DNA from: Lysobacterales bacterium
GTDB taxonomy: Bacteria; Pseudomonadota; Gammaproteobacteria; Xanthomonadales; Rhodanobacteraceae
Assembly (NCBI GenBank): GCA_017305055.1
Contig: JAFKMZ010000011.1
Span: 94,875 to 158,874 of the forward strand
DNA length: 64,000 nt
Direction: 5' to 3'
A program made the position numbers and the translations under genes. This document shows positions 13,639 to 30,553 of this stretch, piece after piece. Under the pieces are notes generated by a model. The model did no database searches and was not told the origin of the DNA. It was given only the letters and a program-made list of their open reading frames with translations. The first letter of the stretch is position 1. Each line of letters begins with the position of its first letter.

Positions 13639-13769
13639 GGCCAAGTCTCGAGCAATGCATCGATACTAGCCGAGGCGGCCACGCACTGTCATATGGACGC
13701 CGCCATGCTCGTGGCGGCCAGCGGTAGCCTGGATGACTCGGGGCGAGTCCTGTCGATTGGGAGTTGGCG

Positions 13770-14660
13770 ATGTCTTTGCAGTTGCCCTGGTTGCAGCTGG
13801 ACGTGTTTTCGGACCGCCTGTTTGCCGGCAATCCGCTGGCGGTGGTGCTGGATGCCGGGACCCTGGATGCGGTGCAGATGCAGCGCGTCGCACGCTGGAC
13901 GAATCTTTCCGAGACCGCGTTTCTGCTGCCGGTGACCGATCCGGCGGCGGACTATCACGTGCGCATCTTCACTCCGCGCCAGGAGCTGCCGTATGCGGGT
14001 CACCCCAGCGTCGGTGCCGCGTATGCCGCGCTGGATGCCGGCATGGTCGGTGCCGGCAAATCCCGCCTGGTGCAGCAGTGTGCCGCCGGCTTGCTGCCGG
14101 TGCAGGTCGAGGGCACGGGCGCAGCGTGCATCATCCACGTGCAGGCGCCTGCTGCGCGGCTGCGCGAACATGACACCACCGCCATGCAGCGTCTGGCCGC
14201 GTCCCTGGGCGCGCCGCTCGAGCCGGGCCGCTGGCGCGAGGTGGACAACGGGCCGCGCTGGCTGGTCTGCGACCTGGGCCAGGCGGCCGTGGTGCGGGCG
14301 CTGCATCCCGACATGGCGGCGTTGGCGGCACTGAGTATGGACTGGTCGGTGATCGGTGCCTGTGTCTTCGGCCGTGAGCCGGAGGGCGCGGTGGCGATGG
14401 CGGTGCGCGCGTTCTGCCCGGCCGACGGCATCCCCGAGGATCCGGTGACCGGCAGCGCGAATGCGGCGATCGCCGCCTACCTGCAGGCCACCGGTGGCCT
14501 GGGCCTTTATGGCCGGCAGTGGCGGGCGAGCCAGGGCCGCGAGGTCGGTCGCGATGGCTACCTGGAGGTGCGTGTCGACGGGGACGGCGGCGCGATCAGC
14601 GTGGGTGGCGCCTGCTGCATCGGTGTGCGTGGCATGTTGCGGCTCGACGCAGCTTCCTGA
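13770..14660 (+). CDS. PhzF family isomerase
   Basis: A 296-residue PhzF-type protein with the two-fold diaminopimelate-epimerase-like fold. Seen are the N-terminal DVFSDRLFAGNPLAVV, the putative acid/base Glu48 in NLSETAFLLP, RIFTPRQELPYAGHPS, and the C-terminal EDPVTGSANAA motif. PhzF itself isomerises a phenazine precursor, but most homologues have unknown substrates and no other phenazine genes occur here. The start is the ATG at 13770 with GGGAG six bases upstream. It is monocistronic and is followed by a 149-base gap before the molybdenum-hydroxylase genes. Confidence 0.88.
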   Translation: MSLQLPWLQLDVFSDRLFAGNPLAVVLDAGTLDAVQMQRVARWTNLSETAFLLPVTDPAADYHVRIFTPRQELPYAGHPSVGAAYAALDAGMVGAGKSRLVQQCAAGLLPVQVEGTGAACIIHVQAPAARLREHDTTAMQRLAASLGAPLEPGRWREVDNGPRWLVCDLGQAAVVRALHPDMAALAALSMDWSVIGACVFGREPEGAVAMAVRAFCPADGIPEDPVTGSANAAIAAYLQATGGLGLYGRQWRASQGREVGRDGYLEVRVDGDGGAISVGGACCIGVRGMLRLDAAS

Positions 14661-14809: not shown

Positions 14810-15346
14810 ATGCTGGCCGCGCAAGCACAGGTCCTGCCGATTGCACCAGAGGACACGATCGTCCCCGACAAGGTGCGCGCGGCCATCGACGTGCTGATCA
14901 ACGGCGAGCATTTCCGCCACACCGGCGACCCGAAGCTGCCCCTGCTCTGGTACCTGCGTGATGTGCTGCGCCTGACCGGCACCAAGATTGCCGGCGAGCT
15001 GGCCAGCAGCGGCGCCGACCTGGTGCTCGTGGCTGGCAAACCCGTTCCTGCCGCGGGTGTGACCATCGAGCAGCTGGCCGGGCGCGAGGTACTCACCGTG
15101 GAAGGCCTGGCGGCCAACGACGGCACCCTGCATCCGCTGCAACAGGCCTTCATCGACGAGGACGCGATCGGCTGCGGCTATTGCACGCCGGGGTGGCTGA
15201 TCTCCGGTGTCGCCCTGCTCCAGCGCAAGCCGCAACCCACCGACGACGACATCGACCAGTTGCCGAACGTATGCCGTTGTGGCTGCCAGACGCGCGTGCG
15301 CCGCGCGATCAAGCGTGCCGCCGCGGGCAAGGCCAACGTGGCATGA
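14810..15346 (+). CDS. IorA-type iron-sulfur subunit lacking the N-terminal cluster
   Basis: A 178-residue homologue of the small subunit of isoquinoline 1-oxidoreductase-type molybdenum hydroxylases. The C-terminal half keeps the helical [2Fe-2S] domain that contacts the molybdenum cofactor: CGYC (Cys122, Cys125) and CRC (Cys155, Cys157). The N-terminal half still has the ferredoxin-like scaffold (LLWYLRDVLRLTGTK) but contains no cysteine before residue 122. The usual CGxxxCGAC ligands are replaced by the stretch AGELASSGAD, so the surface cluster that normally passes electrons outward cannot form. It also has about 25 extra N-terminal residues. The ATG at 14810 has GGAGGAG upstream. The stop overlaps the start of the large subunit (ATGA). 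Confidence 0.85.
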   Translation: MLAAQAQVLPIAPEDTIVPDKVRAAIDVLINGEHFRHTGDPKLPLLWYLRDVLRLTGTKIAGELASSGADLVLVAGKPVPAAGVTIEQLAGREVLTVEGLAANDGTLHPLQQAFIDEDAIGCGYCTPGWLISGVALLQRKPQPTDDDIDQLPNVCRCGCQTRVRRAIKRAAAGKANVA

Positions 15347-17613
15347 GCGTGGTGGATGGACCGCTGCCGTATCTGCGCCTGTCACGCCGGCGCTTCCTGC
15401 AGGTGCTGGCCGGTGGCGCCGGCGTGCTGATGGTCGGCATCGGCCAGGCGCGTGCCGATGCGCCGCCGCTGCCTCCCGGCCTGCTCGGCGACAACTTCCA
15501 TGCCCTCGGTGCCTACGTGCGCATCGATGCCGAGGGCAACGTGCTGATCGGTGCGCGCGATCCGGATACCGGCACCGGTGTGGCCACCTCCCTGCCGCTG
15601 ATCATTGCCGAGGAGATGGATGCCGACTGGAACCGCGTCAGCGTGGTGCCGCTGGGCCTGGACGTCAGCGACGCCAACGGCCAGCCGCGCTGGACGTATG
15701 GCCGCCAGCTTGGCGGCACCGGTACCTCGATTCCCGCGGCGTGGGCCGACCTGCGCCCGGTCGGCGCGCTGGTGCGCTGGATGCTGCTGCAGGCGGCAGC
15801 GACCCGGTTGGGCGTGAAGGCCGAGCGCCTGCGTTGCGAATCGGGGACGGTCATTGCGCCGGACGGCCGCCGCGTCACCTATGGCAGCCTGGCCGGCGCC
15901 GCGAGCGATGTGGCCTTGCCCGGCCAGGTGCCGCCGCTCAAGTCGCCACAGCAGTATCGACTGATCGGCCGCGATGCCGGGGATGTCGATGCCCGCGCCA
16001 TGGTGACCGGCCAGCTGCGCTTTGCCATCGACGAGCGTCCGGGTGATTTCCTGGTAGCCGTGCTGGCTCAATGCCCCTGGCCTGACGGCACGCTGGCCGA
16101 ACTCGACAGCAAGGAGGCGCTGGCCGTCGACGGCGTGGCCAAGGTGCTCCGTATCACCCCCGAGCCCGGCCTGCCCTGGGGCAGCACGGCAATCGCGCCA
16201 GCCGTCGCCGTGCTGGCCACGAGCACCTGGTCTGCGCTGCAGGGCCGGAGCAAGCTCAAGCTGACGTGGCACCCTGGCCCCAGCGCCAGCGAGGACAGCG
16301 GGGTGCTGGAGCAGCAGGCGTCCAAGCTGCTGGACGGCCAAACCGATCCGACCATGCGCGTGCGCAACGACGGCGACGTGGACGCCGCCGGCAAGCACGC
16401 CGCGCGCCGCTTCGATGCCACCTACTTCCAGCCTTGGCTGGCACACGCCACCGCCGAGCCGATGAACTGCATCGTGCGCCTGGACAAGGACCAGGCCCAG
16501 CTCGTGGTCCCGACACAGGCGCCGCAGCAGGCCTGGTCGGTGGTGCGGCGCCTGACCGGCCTGGCACCGGCGCAGATCGACATCCAGGTGCCACGCGTGG
16601 GCGGTGGCTACGGACGCCGCCTGGATCACGACTACGTGGCCGAGGCGGTGATGCTGGCCAAGGCGGTCGACAAGACCGTGTGCCTGTGGTGGTCGCGCGA
16701 GCAGGACCTGGCCCACGACTACTACCAGCCCGGTTGCGTGCACCGGCTGGAGGCGATCGTCGACCGCAAGCGCGACGTGATTGCCTGGACCCAGCGCATG
16801 GCCAGCGCTTCGGCCACGGCGCGCCGCGGGGTTCCCGACGCCCGCCTGTGGGCCTCCGAGCTGCGTGCCACGCAGATGCCTGCCGCGCTGGTCCCCAACT
16901 ACCGCAGCGACTGGTATGCGCTCTCCAGCGCCGTGCCGCGTGGGCCCATGCGCGGCGCGCCCGACGTGGCCAACGCCTTCGTGGTGGAGAGCTTCATCGA
17001 CGAGATCGCGCACCAGCTGCGCGAGAATCCATTGGCGTTCAAGCAGCGCCTGCTGGGCGAGCCGCGCCAGCTGCCGCTGGGCGACGGCAGCACGCTCGAC
17101 ATCGGCCGCCTGCGCAACGTGCTGGAGCTGGTTGCCGAGCGCATCGGCTGGAAGGACTGGCTGCACAGCGTGAATGGGCTCGGGCTTGCCTGCTGGCATC
17201 TCGGTGGCGCCTACGTGGCGCACGCAGTGGAGGTGGCCGTGGATGGCGAGCGTTTGGTCATTCAGCGCGTGGTCTGCGCGGTGGACGTCGGCCGTGTCAT
17301 CAACCGATTGGGATTGGCCGACCAGGTCGCCGGCGCGACGCTCGATGCGATGTCCAACGCCTTGAACCTGGCGATCACCTTCAAGGGCGGGCGCATCCAG
17401 CAGCAGACCCTGGCCGACTACCCGCTGGCCAGCATGGCGCAGCTGCCCAATGACGTCGAGGTCATCACCGTCCCGGGCGACCGTCCACCAACGGGGGCGA
17501 GCTTCCTCGCCATGCCGAGCGCGGCGCCGGCCCTGGCCAACGCAGTGTTCCGCGCCAGCGCCGTGCGCGTGCGCCGCCTGCCGCTGCTGGCGGAATGGGA
17601 GCGCTTGCGCTAG
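15343..17613 (+). CDS. IorB-type molybdopterin subunit, Tat-exported, catalytic Glu replaced
   Basis: A 756-residue large subunit of the xanthine-oxidase superfamily, IorB branch. A twin-arginine signal (LSRRRFLQVL, about residues 12-25) predicts export of the folded complex to the periplasm. Cofactor-binding motifs include RVGGGYGRR (residues 418-426) and RGPMRGAPDVANAF. Near the C-terminus the family motif GVGEPGVPP, which carries the catalytic glutamate, is replaced by GASFLAMPS, with Phe721 at the Glu position. The flanking APALANA is intact, so the alignment is firm. Activity as a normal hydroxylase is doubtful. No cytochrome, FAD subunit or XdhC-type maturation factor is adjacent. The gene is coupled to its small subunit. 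Confidence 0.86.
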   Translation: MSVVDGPLPYLRLSRRRFLQVLAGGAGVLMVGIGQARADAPPLPPGLLGDNFHALGAYVRIDAEGNVLIGARDPDTGTGVATSLPLIIAEEMDADWNRVSVVPLGLDVSDANGQPRWTYGRQLGGTGTSIPAAWADLRPVGALVRWMLLQAAATRLGVKAERLRCESGTVIAPDGRRVTYGSLAGAASDVALPGQVPPLKSPQQYRLIGRDAGDVDARAMVTGQLRFAIDERPGDFLVAVLAQCPWPDGTLAELDSKEALAVDGVAKVLRITPEPGLPWGSTAIAPAVAVLATSTWSALQGRSKLKLTWHPGPSASEDSGVLEQQASKLLDGQTDPTMRVRNDGDVDAAGKHAARRFDATYFQPWLAHATAEPMNCIVRLDKDQAQLVVPTQAPQQAWSVVRRLTGLAPAQIDIQVPRVGGGYGRRLDHDYVAEAVMLAKAVDKTVCLWWSREQDLAHDYYQPGCVHRLEAIVDRKRDVIAWTQRMASASATARRGVPDARLWASELRATQMPAALVPNYRSDWYALSSAVPRGPMRGAPDVANAFVVESFIDEIAHQLRENPLAFKQRLLGEPRQLPLGDGSTLDIGRLRNVLELVAERIGWKDWLHSVNGLGLACWHLGGAYVAHAVEVAVDGERLVIQRVVCAVDVGRVINRLGLADQVAGATLDAMSNALNLAITFKGGRIQQQTLADYPLASMAQLPNDVEVITVPGDRPPTGASFLAMPSAAPALANAVFRASAVRVRRLPLLAEWERLR

Positions 17614-18641: not shown

Positions 18642-19676
18642 ATGCCTGTTGCCCTCCGTGCACCGTACCTGTTGTTTCTCGGCGACGTACCCGCGGCATC
18701 CGATGCCAAGACCGCGGCCGGTATCGCGCATTGGCGCCGTGAGCTGTGCTGTGGGCAGCTGCGGCTTCCGGGATGCCAGGCCGACGTCGGATTGCCCGAT
18801 GTCAGCCTGGCGCAGGCCAGGGAGCGTGGCGCGCAAAGCCTGGTCATCGGCATTGCGCCGGTCGGCGGTGCGTTTGCCCCGTCGTGGCTGGAGACCATGC
18901 GCGAGGCCGCGCGCCTGGGCCTGGACATCGTCAGCGGCATGCACGCCCCGCTGCGCGAGGTTCCGGGGCTGGCGGAACTGGCGGCGGCCTCTGGCGCCCG
19001 CCTGGTCGACGTGCGCGTACCGCCGGAGCATTTGCCGGTGGGCACGGGCGCCAAGCGTTCCGGCCATCGCCTGCTGACCGTGGGCACCGACTGCGCGGTG
19101 GGCAAGAAATACACCGCGCTGTCGATCGATCGCGCCTTGCGCGCGCGCGGTCGCGACTCCACCTTCCGCGCCACCGGGCAGACCGGCATCATGCTTGCCG
19201 GTGCCGGCATCCCGATCGATGCGGTGGTCAGCGATTTCGTCGCCGGTGCGGCCGAGGTGCTGTCCCCGGCCAACGCGCCCGGGCACTGGGATGTCGTGGA
19301 GGGACAGGGCTCGCTGTTCCATCCGGGCTTTGCCGCGGTCACGCTCGGCCTGCTGCACGGTACGCAGCCGGATGCGCTGGTGCTGTGCCACGACCTGGCG
19401 CGCAGCACGATCGAGGATCTGCCGGACTTCTCCATCCCGCCGCTCGCGACCTGCATCGCGCGCTACGTGGAGGCGGCGCGGCTGACCAATGCCGTGGTGC
19501 GCTGCATCGGCGTGGCGGTGAACGCTTCGAGCCTGGGCACGGCCGAATATGCGCGACGGCGCGCGGCAATCGAGGCCGAGACCGGCCTGCCTTGCGTCGA
19601 CCCGATCCGGGACGGCGTCGAGGTCCTGGTGGATGCACTGGATGCCGCCTTCGGCACCGCCGGAGCGGCGGCATGA
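18642..19676 (+). CDS. dgcN: DUF1611 family protein, DgcN (D-glutamate N-acetyltransferase) type
   Basis: A 344-residue DUF1611 protein. The N-terminal half is a Rossmann-like domain. The C-terminal half is P-loop-like with GTDCAVGKKYT (residues 148-158), then GQTGIM and the VEGQGSLFHPG motif. In marine proteobacteria DgcN acts with DgcA in D-glutamate catabolism: D-Glu is N-acetylated, then racemised to N-acetyl-L-Glu. The gene overlaps dgcA by four bases (ATGA), the same pairing as in that pathway, which is the main support for the function. It is the first gene of a two-gene operon. Confidence 0.85.
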   Translation: MPVALRAPYLLFLGDVPAASDAKTAAGIAHWRRELCCGQLRLPGCQADVGLPDVSLAQARERGAQSLVIGIAPVGGAFAPSWLETMREAARLGLDIVSGMHAPLREVPGLAELAAASGARLVDVRVPPEHLPVGTGAKRSGHRLLTVGTDCAVGKKYTALSIDRALRARGRDSTFRATGQTGIMLAGAGIPIDAVVSDFVAGAAEVLSPANAPGHWDVVEGQGSLFHPGFAAVTLGLLHGTQPDALVLCHDLARSTIEDLPDFSIPPLATCIARYVEAARLTNAVVRCIGVAVNASSLGTAEYARRRAAIEAETGLPCVDPIRDGVEVLVDALDAAFGTAGAAA

Positions 19677-20683
19677 GCGCGCCACGCCTCGACGCACTCA
19701 GCGTGCAGGTCGCGATCGAGAACTTTCCCCTGCGCGAACCCTTCACCATCACCGGCAGCACCATGTGGGACACCGACGTCGTGGTGGTCACTCTGGGCAA
19801 GGACGGGCAGCTGGGCCGCGGCGAAGCTTCCGGCGTCTCCTACCATGCCGGCGACGATGCGCCGGGCATGCTCCGGCAGATCGAGGCGGTGCGTGGCAAG
19901 CTGGAGGCGGGATTGGATCGCGAGGCATTGCAGGCCCTGCTGCCCGCCGGCGGTGCGCGCAACGCGGTGGATTGCGCACTGTGGGACCTGGAGGCCAAGC
20001 TGGACGGCCGGCCGGCATGGCAGATCGCCGGGCTCGAAACCCCGCGCGCCCTGCTCACCACGTTCACCGTGGGCGCGAACGTGCCGGCGAAGATGGCTGC
20101 CGATGCGCGGGCCTACGTCCAGGCCAGGGCGATCAAGATGAAGCTGACCGGCGAGGCCGAGGATGCCGACCGCGTGCGCGCCGTGCGTGCCGCGCGCCCG
20201 GAGGTGTGGCTCAGCATCGACGCCAACCAGGGCTTCGACCGCGCCTCGCTGGCCCGCCTCATGCCGGTGCTGGTCGAGGCCCGCGTGCAGCTGGTCGAGC
20301 AGCCGTTCCCGATCGGCCAGGAGGCCCTGATGGATGGCCTGGACTGCCCCATCCCGTGTGCCGCGGACGAAAGCGCGCAGGGCCTCGCCGACTTGCGTGG
20401 CCTGGTCGGGCGCTTCCAGGTGGTCAACATCAAGTTGGACAAGTGCGGCGGCCTCAGCGAGGGCCTGGCCATGGCGCGCGAGGCACGCCGGCTGGGCCTC
20501 GAGGTCATGGTCGGCAACATGATCGGCAGCTCGCTGGCCATGGCCCCGGCGTTCCTGGTCGGCCAGCTGTGCTCGGTGGTGGATCTCGACGGGCCGGTGT
20601 TCCTGCAGCGCGACCGGCCACACCCTGTCAGCTACGTGGACGGCAAGGTGTCGTGCCCGGATGCGTTGTGGGGCGGCGCCTGA
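19673..20683 (+). CDS. dgcA: enolase-superfamily racemase/epimerase, DgcA type
   Basis: A 336-residue member of the muconate-lactonising/dipeptide-epimerase branch of the enolase superfamily. Metal ligands are Asp183 (SIDANQG), Glu209 (VEQPFP) and Asp232 (CAADES). The acid/base lysines are Lys157 in KMK and Lys254 in NIKLDKCGG. This lysine pair fits 1,1-proton transfer, that is racemisation or epimerisation. The two candidate substrates are N-acetyl-D-glutamate (DgcA) and L-Ala-D/L-Glu dipeptide (muropeptide recycling). Coupling to dgcN favours the first. It is cytoplasmic and complete. Confidence 0.85.
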   Translation: MSAPRLDALSVQVAIENFPLREPFTITGSTMWDTDVVVVTLGKDGQLGRGEASGVSYHAGDDAPGMLRQIEAVRGKLEAGLDREALQALLPAGGARNAVDCALWDLEAKLDGRPAWQIAGLETPRALLTTFTVGANVPAKMAADARAYVQARAIKMKLTGEAEDADRVRAVRAARPEVWLSIDANQGFDRASLARLMPVLVEARVQLVEQPFPIGQEALMDGLDCPIPCAADESAQGLADLRGLVGRFQVVNIKLDKCGGLSEGLAMAREARRLGLEVMVGNMIGSSLAMAPAFLVGQLCSVVDLDGPVFLQRDRPHPVSYVDGKVSCPDALWGGA

Positions 20684-20746: not shown

Positions 20747-23662
20747 CTAGTCGAACTTGTACTCGGCCATCAGGTAGTACGAACGGCCGCGCGGGTCGGC
20801 TACGCGCGGCTCCCAGGTGGCACCGGAGGCAAAGTCCACCTGGTGGGCGGTGAACGGCGGGTCCTCGTTCAGCAGGTTGCGTACCGCGAAGGTGAGCGTG
20901 GTGTTCTTCAGGCCGGACCAGCTCGTGCTGTAGTTGTACACGAGGTAGTCGTCCACGTCCGGGTTCCAGTTCGGCGGAATGTAGCTGTCGTTGGCGACGC
21001 TGATCGGCAGCTCATCCTTGTAGCCCGCGCGGTAGATCTGGGTGAGCGTGTGGGTCCAGTCGCCCTTGGCCCAGCTCAGGTTGAGGGTGTGCTTCCACTT
21101 CAGCGGCAGGTTGTAGAACTGGACGTACTCACCGACCTCGTTGTGGCTGTAAGGCTGGTTGGCCAGCGATTTTTCCTTGAAGCTGGCGATGTAACTGCCG
21201 TTGAGGTTGATGTGCCAGCGGCCACCGGCCAATTCGCCGAACAGGTTGGCGTCCAGCTCGACACCGCTCATCAGCGTGCCGCCGGAGTTGATGAAGCGGC
21301 GGTCGATCTCGACCACCTTGCCACTGGCATCGCGGATCCAGTTGGCGGAGAACAAGGCGTAGTTTTCGATCAGCGTAGGCAGGTCCGGCGAGCGGATCGT
21401 GTTGGTGCGCTCGATTTCCCACCAGTCGACACTGGCATTGAAGTTGGCCACCGGCGAATACACCAGGCCGAAACTCTTCTGCTTGGCCTTCTCCGGCTGC
21501 AGGTCGGTCTTGCCGCCGGTGACGATGGTTGGCTGGATCAGCGCGCAACCCGCCACCGTTTCACTGACCACACCCGAAGGGCAGCTGGCTGGATCCACCA
21601 GGTCACGGCCGAAGTAGTCGACCCGGTTAACCCCGGCAAACAACTTGGTGAACTCGGGCACCTTGAACCCGGTGCTGTAGGCGCCGCGGAACGCCAGGCT
21701 CTCGATCGGCTGCCACTTGAACGAGTACTTGGGATTGACCGTGCTGCCGAAGGTGTCGTACTGGTCACGGCGTCCGGCCAGGGTCACGTCCAGCGTCTTC
21801 ACGATGGGCAGGTAGAGCTCGGCGTAGACGGCCTTGACGTCACGGTGCACCTCAGGCAGCTCGCTGGTCTCGTCGAACGGCGCCTGGTAGATGGTGTCGT
21901 AGTTGAGCGGCAAGCCGTTCAGCACCTGGACGCCGCCAAACTTGAAACCTTCGCGCCGCGCCTCCACGCCGGCCGCCAACTGCGCCTCGCCACCCCACAG
22001 GTTGAAGCCGAGGCCGCCATTGACGCTGGCGTCCAGGGTGGTCACGGTGGAATCGCCGCCATACAGGTTGATGCCGGTGGCGGAGGCATGGCGCAATCCA
22101 TCGAGGGCCGCTGTGCTCTGCGCCTGGTCCGGCATGAGGAACGGGTTCAGCGTGCCGCTGCCGAGCAGATCCTGCAGCCCGCTGGAGAAGTAGTAACCTC
22201 CGGCCAGCGTCGAGGTGGCCCTGCTGGATGCGTGTGACAGGCCGACGTCGTAGGTCCAGGTGCCGATCGTGCCATCGGTGCCGACCAGCACCCGGTAGGC
22301 CTTGGTGGTGGTCTCGATCTGTTTCGGGCCGCAGGCCATGCAGCGCCAGCGATAGGGGATCTTGTTGCCATACACCAGGTTGCTGGTGCCAAAGTAGTTG
22401 GCCATGGCGTCGTAGATCTTGTCGTAGGTGGCCTGGGTGTCCGGGGTCAGCGGGTACCAGGTTGTCGGGTTGAGCACGGCGGTCGCCGAGGCGCTGGAAC
22501 TGAGCTGCAGCGGTTCGTACTCGCGTTCCACCTTCACCCGTGAGCCCATCGCCTCGGCGTAGACCTTGTGGTCCTCGTCGATCTTGAAGGTGGCGTGGCC
22601 CATGAACTGGAGGCTGTCCTGCGGTTGCTGCAGCGCCTGTGCGGCCGGGTAGTCCCAGGCGCAGGCGTATTTCAGGCTGGCGCTGTCCCACAGCCGGTAA
22701 TCGTATGGCCCCATGTTCGGGCCACCGCTGGCGCAGCCGGAGGCACCAGGCAGGTTGAGGATGTTGACGTTGCCGGCGTTGGCGCCGCCGGCGGGATCGG
22801 GCAGCGAGCCGTTGATGATGCCGCCGGTGACGTTGGTCACCGTGGCAAAAGGCGTGCCCCGGGTATCCGGCGACACGCCGCGGTCGGGCTGGAAGCTGTT
22901 GGCGAAGTCGCGCTGGCCGCTGCGCAGGATCTGGGCGTGGCGGTAATTGAGCGTGCCCCACGCGTTCCAGCCCTGGCGGTCGAGGTCGCCGATGCCACCC
23001 AGCACGCTGTAGGTCGAGATGTTGCCGCCACCGTCCTCGGTGGCGTCGATGCCGGCGTTGACCGTGGCACCCTGGTAGTCGGTGCGGGTGATGAAGTTGA
23101 TCACGCCACCGATGGCGTCGGTACCGTACATGGCCGAGGCGCCGTCGCGCAGCACCTCGACGCGTTCGACCGCGGCAAACGGAATGGAGTTGAGGTCCAC
23201 GGCCTGGCCGCGCAGGCCATGCGTGGCGACGCGGCGTCCGTTCAACAGCACCAGCGTCGCGTCCGAGCCCTGGCCACGCAGGTTGGCACCGGACACGCCG
23301 GCCGTGCCGCGCAATTCACCCAGATCCATGTCCACCGCGGCCGAAGTGAGGCCGTCGGCGCCGTTGCCGGCGATGTTGAGGAACTGCAGCAGTTGTTCGG
23401 CCGAGACGATGCCCTCGGCGTCGATGGTCTGCCTCTGGATGACAGTGATCGGCAGGGCCTGCTCGATGTCGACGCGCTTGATGCGCGAGCCGGTGACGGT
23501 GACTTCCTTGAGCGTCGTGGCCGCCGTCGGCTGGGTCTCGGCCGAGGACGACTGGGTCGCCTGCTGGGCTGCGGCCGGCACGGCGAGGGCAGCGAGCAGC
23601 GCCGCACAGAGAAGATTCAAGGAGATGTCGCGCCGACTGTGTGGGATTTGCGTGCTATGCAT
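20747..23662 (-). CDS. TonB-dependent outer-membrane receptor
   Basis: A complete 971-residue TonB-dependent receptor. The signal peptide ends around residue 33 (AAAQQ). The plug domain (about 50-180) contains LKEVTVTGSRI, LRGQGSDATLVLLNGRR and the RVEVLRDGASAMYGTDAIGG motif. The beta-barrel runs to the C-terminal YYLMAEYKFD, ending in the aromatic residue needed for barrel assembly. It lacks an STN signalling domain. Long extracellular loops carry several cysteines, including CMACG. The ATG at 23662 has GGAG upstream. It is the last gene of a co-directional series, 65 bases after the serine hydrolase. The ligand is not predictable; a peptide or amino-acid-derived compound is suggested by neighbours. 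Confidence 0.92.
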   Translation of the reverse strand: MHSTQIPHSRRDISLNLLCAALLAALAVPAAAQQATQSSSAETQPTAATTLKEVTVTGSRIKRVDIEQALPITVIQRQTIDAEGIVSAEQLLQFLNIAGNGADGLTSAAVDMDLGELRGTAGVSGANLRGQGSDATLVLLNGRRVATHGLRGQAVDLNSIPFAAVERVEVLRDGASAMYGTDAIGGVINFITRTDYQGATVNAGIDATEDGGGNISTYSVLGGIGDLDRQGWNAWGTLNYRHAQILRSGQRDFANSFQPDRGVSPDTRGTPFATVTNVTGGIINGSLPDPAGGANAGNVNILNLPGASGCASGGPNMGPYDYRLWDSASLKYACAWDYPAAQALQQPQDSLQFMGHATFKIDEDHKVYAEAMGSRVKVEREYEPLQLSSSASATAVLNPTTWYPLTPDTQATYDKIYDAMANYFGTSNLVYGNKIPYRWRCMACGPKQIETTTKAYRVLVGTDGTIGTWTYDVGLSHASSRATSTLAGGYYFSSGLQDLLGSGTLNPFLMPDQAQSTAALDGLRHASATGINLYGGDSTVTTLDASVNGGLGFNLWGGEAQLAAGVEARREGFKFGGVQVLNGLPLNYDTIYQAPFDETSELPEVHRDVKAVYAELYLPIVKTLDVTLAGRRDQYDTFGSTVNPKYSFKWQPIESLAFRGAYSTGFKVPEFTKLFAGVNRVDYFGRDLVDPASCPSGVVSETVAGCALIQPTIVTGGKTDLQPEKAKQKSFGLVYSPVANFNASVDWWEIERTNTIRSPDLPTLIENYALFSANWIRDASGKVVEIDRRFINSGGTLMSGVELDANLFGELAGGRWHINLNGSYIASFKEKSLANQPYSHNEVGEYVQFYNLPLKWKHTLNLSWAKGDWTHTLTQIYRAGYKDELPISVANDSYIPPNWNPDVDDYLVYNYSTSWSGLKNTTLTFAVRNLLNEDPPFTAHQVDFASGATWEPRVADPRGRSYYLMAEYKFD

Positions 23663-24859: not shown

Positions 24860-26212
24860 TCATTGGCCGTCGCGCGGACTTGGCGTGGCATGGCGCCCCG
24901 ACCACCAGCGCCAGATGTAGTAGACCGGGACACCCATGGCGGTGATGAGCAGGCTCATGCCGGCGTTGCCCGGGGAATAGATGGCGCTGGCCACGATCAC
25001 CGCGAACACGGTGAGCACGAACAGCAACGGCAGCAGCGGGTAAAACGGCACACGGTACGGTGCCGGCTGGTCGATGAAATGCTTGCGGTACCAGAACAGC
25101 GTGCCGACACCGAACATGTGCCCCAGGTATTCACCCACGGTGGTGTAGTTGAGCAGGGCGTTGAAGCTGCCTGACCACGCCAGGACGATGGCCCACGCAC
25201 CGAGCACGGCCAGGGCGACCTGTGGTGCACGGGTGCGTATTTCGACCCGCCCCACCGCGCGGAAGAACAGGCCATCGGCAGCCATGGTCTGCAGCACGCG
25301 GGCCCCCCCGGCAATCGCGATGGTGCAGTAGCCGAAGGTCGAGCAGGCGATGCCGACGGCAATCACGGTGGCGCCGTGGTCGCCAAACAACTTGCGCATC
25401 AGGTCCGCGGCAGGCGCCGTGCTGGCGGCAAGGCCGGCGTGCCCCAGTCCCGCCAGGTAGGCGAAATTGGCCAGCACGTAACAGGCCATGACGCCGCCTA
25501 TGCCCAAGGCCAACGCGCGAGGAAGCGTGACCTGCGGGTTGCGCACCTCGCCGGCCAGGTCGTTCAAGTAGTGGAAGCCGCTGTAGGTGAACAGCACCGG
25601 CATCAGCGCGCCGACGAAGCTCCAGCGTGACAGCGGTACCGCGGGATCCGCCATCCAGGCCAGGCCAAGGTGGTCGTGTCCGATGACCAGCCCGGCGACG
25701 ACCAGCAAGGTAATGGCGACCAGCTTCAGCATGGTGAAAATGTTCAGCATCCAGGCGCCGGCGCGGATGCCGAACAGGTTGATGCCGACGATGAAGACGA
25801 TCGCGCCGACCGCGAGCGGCTTGGCATAGAGCGGCGAGGGCAAGCCAAGCGCGGCGCACAGGTATTCGGCAAACACCGTGGCGACGGCGGCGATGCTGCC
25901 CGGGTAGTTGACCAGGGCCATGGTCCAGCCGAACAGGAAGGCCGGCAGCAGGCCGAACGCCTCGCGCAGGTAGATGTAGATGCCGCCGGTCTCCGGCCGC
26001 CGCGCGCCAAGTTCGCCGTAGCACAGCACGCCGGCCAGGGTCAGCAGGCCGGCAATCACCCACAGCGAGAGGTCCACCACCGGCGAGGCGTGCTGGGCGA
26101 CGCTGGCGGGGGTGAGGAAGATGCCGGCACCGATGATGCCGCCGATGACGATCATCGAGGCATCCCACGTGTTCAGCCGACGCAGATAGCTCGGTGTGGT
26201 CATTGCGGGCAT
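24860..26212 (-). CDS. APC superfamily amino-acid permease
   Basis: A 450-residue inner-membrane transporter with about 12 hydrophobic helices. TM1 holds the glycine-rich unwound motif GGIIGAGIF for substrate binding, and a conserved RPETGGIYIYLREAFG follows TM2. The family imports or exchanges amino acids. A TTG at 26233 is possible, but the ATG at 26212 has GGGGGA upstream and fits better. It is followed within 52 bases by the serine hydrolase gene, which suggests uptake of that enzyme's products. Confidence 0.88.
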   Translation of the reverse strand: MPAMTTPSYLRRLNTWDASMIVIGGIIGAGIFLTPASVAQHASPVVDLSLWVIAGLLTLAGVLCYGELGARRPETGGIYIYLREAFGLLPAFLFGWTMALVNYPGSIAAVATVFAEYLCAALGLPSPLYAKPLAVGAIVFIVGINLFGIRAGAWMLNIFTMLKLVAITLLVVAGLVIGHDHLGLAWMADPAVPLSRWSFVGALMPVLFTYSGFHYLNDLAGEVRNPQVTLPRALALGIGGVMACYVLANFAYLAGLGHAGLAASTAPAADLMRKLFGDHGATVIAVGIACSTFGYCTIAIAGGARVLQTMAADGLFFRAVGRVEIRTRAPQVALAVLGAWAIVLAWSGSFNALLNYTTVGEYLGHMFGVGTLFWYRKHFIDQPAPYRVPFYPLLPLLFVLTVFAVIVASAIYSPGNAGMSLLITAMGVPVYYIWRWWSGRHATPSPRDGQ

Positions 26213-26340
26213 GGCAGCCGGTCCCCCATCCAATGCCTGGGAAGGTTTGGTTTCTTGCTGGCCCCCGGCAACGCGTAGCGACAGCGGGTGCCTAACGGCG
26301 CGACATCGGACGCGCCACGATCAAATGCACGCCCGCGCGG

Positions 26341-27252: not shown

Positions 27253-30060
27253 CTACCAGCTGTATCTGACTTTTCCGTACACATAGGAGCCCTCGAAGCC
27301 GAATGGTGAGTCCTGCCAATAGCGCAGAATGCCGTGCTCATTCTGGCCAAAGGCGGTATTTTGCTTGTCCGGGTAAGTGTTGAGCACGTTGTTGCCGCCA
27401 AGGGTGAACGTCCAGCGGTTCACCTTGTAGCTGGCGGCAAGGTCGAGCAGCCACTTGCCGGGGTAGACCTGATCCATGCCCGGATCGGACTGGAACTGGG
27501 TGACCTTGCCGTAGCGGGTCAGTACACCGTCGAGTTCCCACCGACCCAGGCCATACGTTTCCGCAAGGATGATCTTGCTGCGCGGGGCAGAGTCGGCAAG
27601 CAGGCCAAGGATCTTGACCCGGCTCAGGCGCTGGAAGCTGAGTCCCAGAGCATCCAGCACGGCCGGGTTCGGCATCACGTTGGTGACCTTGTTCGCGTGG
27701 TACCCCATGCTGAGCGTGGTCAGCGACGTGCCGCCGTTGACGGACAAGTGGCGATAGCTGGAAACCAGGTCGGCGCCCCGCGTACGTACCGTGCCGGCGT
27801 TGGTGAAGTACGAGACACCGCGGTAGTTGAGGTTGCCGATACCGTTGGCGGTGAGGTAGGCGCGCACATCCGGAGTGCTGGTGGCGATGGTGGTCGATTG
27901 CGAGATGGTGTCGTCCACCGTGATCTGGTACAGGTCCAGGCTCATGGTCAGCGCGTTGGTGGGGCTCCATACCGCGCCGAACGTATAGCTGCGCGACTTT
28001 TCCGCCTTGAGTGGCTTGGCGCCAAGCAGTACGGCCACGGGGTTGTTGGTCGGGACCAGGCCACGCAGGTAGGGGCCGGGCGGTAGACCCAGCGAGTTGC
28101 CTTCGCCGAAGAAGCCGGACGCGGTCTCGGAATAGAATTGCTGGCCAAGGGTCGGCGCGCGGAAGCCGGTGGAGAGCGTCCCACGCAAGGCGAAGCTGTC
28201 GGTAAAATCGAAGCGGCCGGACAAGGCCGCGGAGTTCGCCGTGCCGAAGTCCGAATAATGCTCGTGGCGACCGGCCAGCGAAACGCCAAGCTTGTCGGTC
28301 AGGTTGGTTTCCAGCTGGATGTATTCGGCCAGGTTGGTGCGCGCCACGTTGACCTCGTCATACGGCCCCCAGCCGGCAAAACCCTGGGCACCACCGCTGA
28401 CGCCCGAGGTACCCACGTAATACGAGCCCAGGTCGCCCGCCCTGACGTTGTAGGCGTCGCGTATCCATTGGGTGCCGAAAGAGACGGTCAGCGGGCCCTG
28501 CAGCCAGCCGACCGCCACGGGCTTGGATATATCGATGTTGATCGTCTGCTGCGACGACTTCAGTGTGCCGTCGTGGAAGCGGCTTGGGCTGCTGCCGAAA
28601 TCGTTGATCAAGGCGTAGTTGGCGGTGTTCGTGGTCGCGTACGACAGCCGGTTCTGCCCGCTGCTGCCGCCGACGTCCCAATGCCAGCCAGCCACCGTCC
28701 CGCGCAGACCCGCGGTGAGCGAGCGGTCGAGCGAGTTGCCGTGCTCGATCGGCAGGAAGCCATCGGGGTACATCTCCACCATCAGCGGGTTGCTCGGCTC
28801 CGGGGTGTTGCTGCCGTAGCGGAAGTAACCGGATGGTTCACCAATCCGTTGTCCGAAGTGACTGAACGCGTACACCTGCACCCCGGGGGTGATGGCGTAC
28901 TGCATGTTGAGCATGACGTTGCGGTCGGTGAAGGGCACCACACCAAGGCGGAAGGTCTGGCCGAGGTGGCTGAACCCAGGACGGTCATCGACGCCCGCGC
29001 GGTTGGTCGCGTTCTGTTTGCCATTCTGTGCGGAGATGCGCAACCACCCCTGGTCGTTGCCCAGTGGCGCGCCGAAGTCGCCGGAAAGCTGCCAGCCCAT
29101 GCCGTCGCCGGCGCTGTACTTGCCACCGTCGAGGGCCACGGTGCCGCCCGTCCCGTCCTTCTTGAGGATGATGTTGATGACGCCGGCCACCGCGTCCGAG
29201 CCGTACTGCGCGGATGCGCCATCGCGCAGGACCTCGATGTGGTCGATGGCTGCCACCGGTATCGTATTGAGGTCGACGGTCTGCGAGCCTTGGCCGATGT
29301 CACCGGAGGTGAACACGATGGCTCCCGGATGCCAGCGCTTGCCGTCGACCAGCACCAGTACCTGCGAGGCGGCCATGCCGCGCAGCTGGAATGGACGCTG
29401 GAACGCCATGAGGTCCGAGTCGGTGGCAAGCGGCATGTTCAGGGATGGAATGAAGCGTTCGATCGCCGTGCTCAGGTTGGTCGCGCTGCTCTTCAGCAGC
29501 AGTTCCTGCGGGATCACATCGATGGGCGTCAGCGCCGAACTCGCGGTGCGGTCTCCAGTGCGCGTGCCGGTCACGATCACCGTGCCCAGGTTCTTCGTCC
29601 GCGGTGCCACCTGGCCCGGCGTGCCGGTGGACTGGGCCATGGCTGCAGCCGCTGGCGTGAGGATGGCGTGGCCGGTCATGGCGATGGTCGGGGTCGAGCC
29701 AACGCCATCCGCGCGGGAGCCATCCCCGACCGAGATCGTGGTGCCGTTGATTTTCTGGATGTGCAGGTCCGTACCTGCCAGCATGGCCTGCAGGCCCTCT
29801 AGCGTCGTGTAGTTGCCCTGCAACGGATGAGTGGTGATGCCCTGCACCCGATCCTGCGAGAACACCAGGGTGATGTCGGCCTGTTCGGCAAAGGCATTCA
29901 ATGCCGCGGTTGCAGGTTGCGCGGGTACATTGAAGCTCTTCCTGCCGGAAGCCTCCTGCGCCAGAACGTTCGGTATGGCCACCCAGGTGCCGATCGCGAT
30001 GAACAGGGCGCCACAAACTGTGTGGCGCTGGAAACGGTTCATCGCAAGATGACCTCGCAT
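27253..30060 (-). CDS. TonB-dependent transducer with N-terminal STN domain
   Basis: A 935-residue TonB receptor. After a signal peptide (about residues 1-35) comes an STN domain (about 42-109, KSFNVPAQPATAALNAFAEQ), which signals to a FecR-type anti-sigma factor in the periplasm. A Ser/Ala-rich linker, a plug (about 165-290; IEVLRDGASAQYGSDAVAG) and a beta-barrel ending GSYVYGKVRYSW follow. This architecture with FecI and FecR upstream is a complete cell-surface signalling system: ligand binding outside activates the sigma factor inside. The start is taken as the ATG at 30060 (GGGGAG upstream); the ATG at 30042 is possible. The ligand is unknown. Confidence 0.9.
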   Translation of the reverse strand: MRGHLAMNRFQRHTVCGALFIAIGTWVAIPNVLAQEASGRKSFNVPAQPATAALNAFAEQADITLVFSQDRVQGITTHPLQGNYTTLEGLQAMLAGTDLHIQKINGTTISVGDGSRADGVGSTPTIAMTGHAILTPAAAAMAQSTGTPGQVAPRTKNLGTVIVTGTRTGDRTASSALTPIDVIPQELLLKSSATNLSTAIERFIPSLNMPLATDSDLMAFQRPFQLRGMAASQVLVLVDGKRWHPGAIVFTSGDIGQGSQTVDLNTIPVAAIDHIEVLRDGASAQYGSDAVAGVINIILKKDGTGGTVALDGGKYSAGDGMGWQLSGDFGAPLGNDQGWLRISAQNGKQNATNRAGVDDRPGFSHLGQTFRLGVVPFTDRNVMLNMQYAITPGVQVYAFSHFGQRIGEPSGYFRYGSNTPEPSNPLMVEMYPDGFLPIEHGNSLDRSLTAGLRGTVAGWHWDVGGSSGQNRLSYATTNTANYALINDFGSSPSRFHDGTLKSSQQTINIDISKPVAVGWLQGPLTVSFGTQWIRDAYNVRAGDLGSYYVGTSGVSGGAQGFAGWGPYDEVNVARTNLAEYIQLETNLTDKLGVSLAGRHEHYSDFGTANSAALSGRFDFTDSFALRGTLSTGFRAPTLGQQFYSETASGFFGEGNSLGLPPGPYLRGLVPTNNPVAVLLGAKPLKAEKSRSYTFGAVWSPTNALTMSLDLYQITVDDTISQSTTIATSTPDVRAYLTANGIGNLNYRGVSYFTNAGTVRTRGADLVSSYRHLSVNGGTSLTTLSMGYHANKVTNVMPNPAVLDALGLSFQRLSRVKILGLLADSAPRSKIILAETYGLGRWELDGVLTRYGKVTQFQSDPGMDQVYPGKWLLDLAASYKVNRWTFTLGGNNVLNTYPDKQNTAFGQNEHGILRYWQDSPFGFEGSYVYGKVRYSW

Positions 30061-30145
30061 CGCTGCACTTTCTCCCCTGGGATTGATGCAGATCCCCGGC
30101 ACGGCCGCCGGCTCCAACTGAAGACGGCTCGGCGATGGATTTCCA

Positions 30146-30553
30146 CTATTCCGCACGCGGCTGCGCCGGTTCATGGACACCCGGCTTCTCCGCGTCGCCT
30201 GGCCCGCCTGGCCCACAGGACTTCCGCAGGCAAATGAGATAGGGGCCATCTGCGGTATGCCGATAGCCCAGCTGGGTTCCGCTCAGCAGGAGAGTCAGCC
30301 CCGCGTCCACGGTGAAGCGGCCTTGCAGCGAATAGGTATTTTCGCCGGCGACAAGGTCATAGGAGAAGATCAGTGTGATATCCGCCTGCTTGGCAAACTC
30401 GTTCAATGCCGACGCAGCCGGCTGCGCCGGAATGTCGAAGAGCATGTCTTTGGCGCCTGCGGCGACGCATGCCGACATGCCGGGTAAGGCGAGCAGCAGC
30501 GCCAGCAAGAGCGGGCCACGCGAAAGCCATGTGGTCTTTCCCATCCGCTGCAT
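30146..30553 (-). CDS. free-standing STN-domain periplasmic protein
   Basis: A 135-residue protein made of a signal peptide (about residues 1-34, with a near-lipobox MSAC at 26-29), one STN domain (about 37-107) and a Pro/Gly-rich tail. The domain (MLFDIPAQPAASALNEFAKQ, then QADITLIFSYDLVAG) closely resembles the STN domain of the receptor that follows 85 bases later. No plug or barrel is attached. It may be a duplicated receptor N-terminus kept as a soluble modulator of FecR, or a remnant of a broken receptor gene. The intact signal peptide and clean stop favour a working gene. FecR ends 98 bases upstream. Confidence 0.75.
   Translation of the reverse strand: MQRMGKTTWLSRGPLLLALLLALPGMSACVAAGAKDMLFDIPAQPAASALNEFAKQADITLIFSYDLVAGENTYSLQGRFTVDAGLTLLLSGTQLGYRHTADGPYLICLRKSCGPGGPGDAEKPGVHEPAQPRAE

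Follow-up and report, generated by a model that had tools for sequence, protein, structure and literature searches.

A putatively exported IorAB-type protein pair of the Rhodanobacteraceae that has probably given up the molybdenum cofactor

The closest described systems are the IorAB hydroxylases (isoquinoline 1-oxidoreductase type, which we take to be the family name of the pair) and the membrane-bound aldehyde dehydrogenase of Gluconobacter oxydans (8gy3). The pair described here shares with them a Tat-like motif, the MoCoBD_1 and MoCoBD_2 domains, the organization as a two-gene unit and a C-terminal [2Fe-2S] domain, and 8gy3_C is the top PDB match of its large subunit by sequence as well as by fold. 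Unlike these enzymes, however, the pair has neither the catalytic glutamate nor the N-terminal [2Fe-2S] cysteines, several residues of its cofactor motifs are changed, and it is kept in genomes in which the genes for molybdenum cofactor (Moco) synthesis were not found.

Proteins of molybdenum enzyme families that do without Moco have been described before. One example is NuoG, which according to PMC10609526 has a molybdenum-enzyme-family fold without Moco. The parallel lies in a conserved descendant of such a family that kept the fold and not the cofactor. NuoG has the DMSO-reductase fold, belongs to another superfamily and is a cytoplasmic complex I subunit of known function. A second parallel is the G1269R variant of human AOX1 (hAOX1; 6q6q), in which the residue just before the catalytic Glu is changed and the protein, according to PMC6487702, is folded yet free of Moco. 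It is a single inactive variant with Arg, whereas the pair represents an evolved family with Ser at this place. Finally, orphan genes of the XO (xanthine oxidase) and DMSOR families occur in genomes without a complete Moco pathway, and a Mo-independent form was suggested for them (PMC6147048, 2018). That survey reportedly found no sequence feature and did not distinguish missing genes from true Mo independence; compared with those orphans, a signature in both subunits can be given here. Full-text literature searches led to no report that we recognised as describing this branch.

Table 1. Positions of the gene pair, its altered motifs and neighboring genes in the window, the whole stretch of 64,000 nucleotides that was analysed
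Feature	Position	Strand	Basis
PhzF-family gene, directly 5' of the pair	13764..14660	+	domain match
Small subunit, 178 aa	14810..15346	+	profile match to Fer2_2
Large subunit, 756 aa, IorB-type molybdenum-hydroxylase scaffold	15343..17613	+	MoCoBD_1, MoCoBD_2 matches
GTG, residues 77-79, replacing GQG; Thr78 in 39/39 of Phe clade (tree set)	15571..15579	+	alignment
G-T-G, residues 125-127, replacing G-G-S loop; Gly127 in 39/39	15715..15723	+	alignment
GGGYGRR, residues 420-426; F423Y, remaining motif intact	16600..16620	+	alignment
Trp618; His in 38/40 Glu-type orthologs and paralogs (tree set)	17194..17196	+	alignment
GASF, residues 718-721, replacing GxGE; G720S and E721F	17494..17505	+	alignment
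AA_permease_2 protein, paralog of the partner permease	24863-26233	-	~57% identity

The two genes overlap by ATGA in the window. A domain profile search matched Fer2_2 as the only domain of the small subunit and did not match Fer2: the C-terminal Fer2_2 domain carries the pattern CxxC...CxC (C122, C125, C155 and C157), and the N-terminal ferredoxin-like domain is without its [2Fe-2S] cysteines. The large subunit starts with the Tat-like motif SRRRFLQVL. This signal and the adjoining small-subunit gene point to an exported pair of the IorAB type. High-confidence predictions place the two chains in XO-family folds (small subunit: pLDDT 90.5, top PDB match 5y6q_A; large subunit: pLDDT 90.0, top PDB match 8gy3_C, TMq 0.80). 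By fold and lineage (MoCoBD_1, MoCoBD_2 and the XO-family fold) the large subunit thus belongs to the molybdenum hydroxylase (xanthine oxidase) family. Two features of the enzymes of this family are missing, namely the catalytic Glu of GxGE in the large subunit and one of the two [2Fe-2S] clusters in the small subunit.

The earlier note on this DNA had claimed that the GVGE motif is replaced by GASF, with Phe721 in the place of the catalytic glutamate. This proved correct: the codon is TTC (17503-17505), GASF aligns with GxGE free of gaps, and among the best 80 of 577 loci the column holds Glu in 70, F in 9 and I in 1, the 10 non-Glu loci being close orthologs. A misaligned motif was rejected, because there are no gaps and Glu stands in the same column in those 70 loci. 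All 14 orthologs read outside the family and all 8 paralogs have Glu as well. The orthologs read in the genus (30 out of the 44 genus genomes with a match) have GASF in 29 cases, the window's included, and GASL in one, so that a local mutation or sequencing error was rejected as well. Within the family, Glu is otherwise replaced by V, I, T, D, A, S, H, L or an alignment gap. The altered gene occurs in many genera and is under purifying selection, which argues against chance. Judged by the alignment, no compensating Glu appears at the cofactor motifs; the glutamates that are newly invariant in the Phe clade (323, 506 and 561) all lie outside them.

A few orthologs look unusual in other ways. 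In genus g2, which is otherwise Glu-less (D, A or S read), the G052 gene, split between two frames, encodes GAYE. The orthologs at G065:C4:100604-102842 and G052:C36:97940-100158 each appear as two overlapping matches in different frames, resembling a frameshift. In four genus g5 orthologs (L065, L153, L090 and L092), both Arg537 and the Glu site fall in alignment gaps. These orthologs are thereby altered more drastically than the Phe clade.

The partner had been said to have lost a redox cluster, and indeed the four N-terminal [2Fe-2S] cysteines are gone and the other four are kept. This pattern is found in 39 of 39 partners of Phe/Leu type in the tree set. The loss is limited to the Phe/Leu clade: all other partners in the tree set are complete except that of the Glu paralog L076, which has a gap at one of the four N-terminal cysteines. 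The earlier note saw two independent losses in a coupled pair. Both losses are real, but they were not simultaneous: some lineages without Glu still have all eight cysteines, which places the loss of Glu before that of the distal cluster in the window's lineage. The Moco-less orthologs read retain C122, C125, C155 and C157 as well as the RR (Tat) motif in 48 of 48 cases. An extra cysteine at residue 159 of the small subunit (15284-15286, in CRCGC) occurs in 31 of 39 Phe-clade small subunits; this residue is Thr in 32 of 32 Glu-type orthologs.

The changes extend to the cofactor motifs. At least 93% invariance in the Glu-type proteins (32 orthologs and 8 paralogs) is reached by 111 columns, of which the Phe clade (39 proteins in the tree set) kept 83 and changed 28; for the Glu column this comparison is circular, as it served to define the groups. 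The changed columns include Q78T, P105G, G126, S127G, F423Y, W536, H618W, F621, A660G, G720S and E721F. In the Phe clade, T78, G105, G127, Y423 and S720 are found in all 39 proteins and F721 in 38; L158, a further named Phe ortholog outside this count, has Ser78. The 70 Glu-bearing named loci (from the best 80 of 577) have Gln78 in 69 cases and Ser127 and Phe423 in all 70. Position 618 varies in more distant Glu-bearing relatives, where His618 is not conserved. In the small subunit, Gln121 is present in 32 of 32 Glu-type orthologs and in none of the 39 Phe-clade proteins; the window has Gly there, and G121, T126 (38/39) and W129 are markers of the Phe clade.

For comparison, the pterin of hAOX1 is held by Gln113, Gln776, Phe807, Arg921 and Gln1203, according to PMC6487702. 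The Phe clade keeps Gln392 (39/39), Gln661 (39/39), Arg537 (38/39) and GGG.GRR. Matching by motif rather than by superposition, we take hAOX1 Gln113 to correspond to Gln121 of the small subunit (lost), Gln776 to Gln392 (kept), Phe807 to Phe423 (now Tyr), Arg921 to Arg537 (kept), Gln1203 to Gln661 (kept) and Gly1269 to Gly720 (now Ser).

The large subunit is nearly universal in its family, which we take to be the Rhodanobacteraceae. Of 45 genomes in the genus, 44 have a match (E 0.001), as do 225 of 233 in the family (E 1e-60). Among good family assemblies (completeness of 90% or more, contamination of 5% or less) the figure is 190 of 192, the exceptions being G136 and G171. The weakest best match among the listed family genomes is 7.7e-114, and most other IorB-type genes that we saw score 1.5e-100 or weaker. 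G062 and G224, however, also contain a second type, with Glu, that matches at about 1e-170, so that a few presence calls could rest on it. The named matches without Glu include Rhodanobacter, Dyella, Frateuria and Oleiagrimonas.

Many of these genomes seem to lack Moco synthesis. MoaC was found in 177 of the 233 family genomes and not found in 56. Among the latter, MoaA was not found in 55 (G212 is positive) and MoeA_N not found in 51; those with MoeA_N (G050, G056, G212, G221 and G230) are all fragmented assemblies. The 51 family genomes without matches to MoaA, MoaC and MoeA, subsequently referred to as Moco-less, are presumably incapable of making Moco, and seven of them are single-contig assemblies (G038, G044, G061, G124, G137, G140 and G206). 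The large subunit has a match in 49 of the 51 (the exceptions, G141 and G176, are both less than 90% complete) and in 42 of 42 good assemblies among them. It therefore does not occur only together with Moco synthesis and XdhC, the window genome being XdhC-negative in addition. This retention in genomes without detected Moco genes goes beyond what the earlier note had seen. PF00174 gave no match over the cut-off in the 51 Moco-less genomes (one sub-threshold match in G006). PF00384 gave one match in 50 of them and none in G173; in the three inspected (G044, G038 and G140) this match is NuoG. The window genome (G000) has MoaA, MoaC and MoeA; its Moco can be explained by a gene for formate dehydrogenase alpha, present as two pieces at contig ends.

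In 45 of the 49 Moco-less genomes with a match the large subunit is the sole MoCoBD_1 gene. G029, G188 and G204 have a second one, and G134 has a fragment of one. In G188 this additional gene (L120, G188:C12:21500-27500) has a canonical GxGE although the genome has no matches to MoaA, MoaC and MoeA; it is a true orphan, a contamination or the sign of a gap. Orphan genes, contamination or missed Moco genes thus do occur.

We compared the residue at position 721 with the Moco status of the genomes. The 48 Moco-less orthologs read have F in 37, D in 6, a gap in 2 and I, H and T in one each, and never Glu. The 60 Moco-bearing ones have F in 33, E in 15 (G052 included), V in 4, D in 2, a gap in 2 and L, A, S and T in one each; four genomes of unsure Moco status have D (2) and E (2). 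Since 34 of the 60 Moco-bearing orthologs read are of the Phe/Leu type, Glu loss does not require Moco loss. The seven orthologs read in genus g18 have Glu in the Moco-bearing G174 and Asp in six Moco-less genomes. Glu loss and Moco loss were also compared by a paired sign test, which with its three pairs had no power.

XdhC_C was searched in 80 genomes and found in 47; the profile search did not find it in the window genome. In the 67 of these genomes with the residue read, XdhC accompanies 13 of 13 Glu-bearing and 23 of 54 Glu-less orthologs (Fisher p 1e-4, kinship ignored). It was not found in 21 of 44 Moco-bearing Glu-less genomes, nor in any of the 10 Moco-less genomes searched. In genus g5, XdhC is present in G072, G078 and G081 (Glu) and absent in G075, G077 and G082 (no Glu, MoaC present). 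It may serve other XO-type enzymes; G013 has two MoCoBD_1 genes and G151 has three. An E. coli aldehyde oxidoreductase made without its XdhC-like chaperone contained FAD and Fe-S, but no Moco, according to PMC10609526.

The earlier note had proposed a phylogeny of Glu-less IorB-like proteins as a check. In a tree of 102 proteins with and without Glu, the Glu state requires three changes, a number that well-supported branches also force, and this result persists when the pocket columns and two long-branch paralogs are removed (100 rows). Grouping all Glu-less proteins in one clade is rejected (p-AU 3e-80; 48 rows, again minus the two paralogs; LG+G4). The 102-protein set excludes most genus g1 orthologs (seven kept), the split or short L066 (G052, GAYE), L067 (G053, Ser) and L068 (G065), second-copy fragments and rows shorter than 600 aa. 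We read the result as three Glu losses; fewer losses and a regain are formally possible. The MoaC state changes 17 times on the same gene tree, which need not equal the species tree; the fragmented G212, G230, G050 and G056 were excluded from the Moco labels. In 11 pairs, all from Moco-less genomes, dN/dS was 0.10-0.29 for the large subunit and 0.06-0.42 for the small subunit. The large subunit is under purifying selection even in Moco-less genomes.

Taken from the sequences, it is likely that the pair descends from a periplasmic molybdenum hydroxylase of the IorAB type and no longer uses Moco. Several observations stand against this, among them the putative pterin-contact residues Gln392, Gln661, Arg537 and GGG.GRR, which are kept, MoaA, MoaC and MoeA in the window genome, the Phe/Leu-type orthologs of Moco-bearing genomes, the additional MoCoBD_1 genes or fragment of four Moco-less genomes and the GAYE of G052. 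The first two of these favor a pair that still binds Moco in strains that make it and catalyzes a reaction without need for Glu as general base. We regard this as very unlikely, for the Phe type is the same in 37 of the 48 Moco-less orthologs read, so that the shared pocket residues are not kept for Moco in those genomes, and XdhC is wanting both in the window genome and in nearly half of the Moco-bearing Glu-less ones. It is highly improbable that Moco-less genomes acquire or make the cofactor by means of unknown genes, with the protein being a molybdenum enzyme of unusual chemistry: MoaA, MoaC and MoeA are jointly missing from 51 genomes, XdhC from all 10 searched, and sulfite-oxidase-type domains and PF00384 genes beyond one copy are missing too. 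The option itself was raised for orphan molybdoproteins in PMC6147048.

Could the gene be a decaying relic, its function lost and the gene on its way out? Active-site residues were lost in several lineages, four g5 orthologs are gapped at two of these sites, and in G052 and G065 the gene is spread over two frames that overlap. A gene in decay is nevertheless very unlikely given the matches in almost all good family genomes, the low dN/dS of the 11 Moco-less pairs, the near invariance of the replaced pocket residues across the Phe clade and the inner-cluster cysteines in 48 of 48 Moco-less orthologs read. A further proposal, compatible with the loss of Moco use, is that the pair works with an APC amino-acid permease as a periplasmic substrate binder or regulator. 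Such a permease, closest to L-type transporters but below curated cut-offs, immediately precedes the pair in 58 of 70 Phe-clade loci (counting those with at least 500 bases upstream), in 13 of 23 other Glu-less and in 7 of 17 Glu-bearing family loci. It gives a hint to the function of the pair. The partnership still seems unlikely, as the permease adjoins the pair neither in the window nor in 11 other Phe-clade loci, nor in any of the 14 loci outside the family.

The permease of the window was rejected as the usual partner, being a paralog (Table 1). In its vicinity, a DUF1611 protein followed by an MR_MLE enzyme (18642-20680, plus strand), which we presume to be dipeptide-epimerase-like, lies near two TonB receptors (20750-23662 and 27256-30249, minus strand). 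This region is possibly a cluster for peptide or amino-acid use.

We return to the pair as a probable Moco-independent descendant. Its ancestor would be an IorAB-type enzyme; the sequences show that the catalytic Glu and cofactor-motif residues of both subunits were lost, with the Tat-like motif and the inner [2Fe-2S] ligands retained. The two chains would still fold and pair, the small subunit would still carry the inner [2Fe-2S] cluster, and the folded heterodimer would be exported by Tat. The vacated pterin pocket might then bind another small ligand or cofactor beside the remaining cluster; it would be lined by the newly fixed Thr78, Gly127, Tyr423, Trp618, Ser720 and Phe721 together with the kept Gln392, Arg537 and Gln661. 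The protein would thereby be a one-cluster redox or ligand-binding unit, for sensing or electron transfer. That the rebuilt pocket holds a different ligand or cofactor is a tentative proposal. Perhaps, too, the Mo-free branch with its rebuilt pocket constitutes a new kind of exported redox protein or enzyme, one that evolved more than once following the loss of Glu. Structure prediction of the heterodimer with Mo-MCD, as the earlier note had advised, is probably the wrong model, because the gene persists where Moco synthesis genes were not found. Its suggestion of an enzyme family re-used for something else is well supported by the near-universal presence, the purifying selection and the cofactor-motif residues that were remodelled and then nearly fixed.

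The conserved exported pair thus seems to have taken on a new role. Within a single family there are a sequence signature, recurrent losses of Glu and close natural pairs that differ in whether the synthesis genes are present, which makes molybdenum independence testable at the bench. If our reading is true, then for most of the family it would be a mistake to annotate this near-core gene as a molybdenum-dependent dehydrogenase or to infer Moco use from it.
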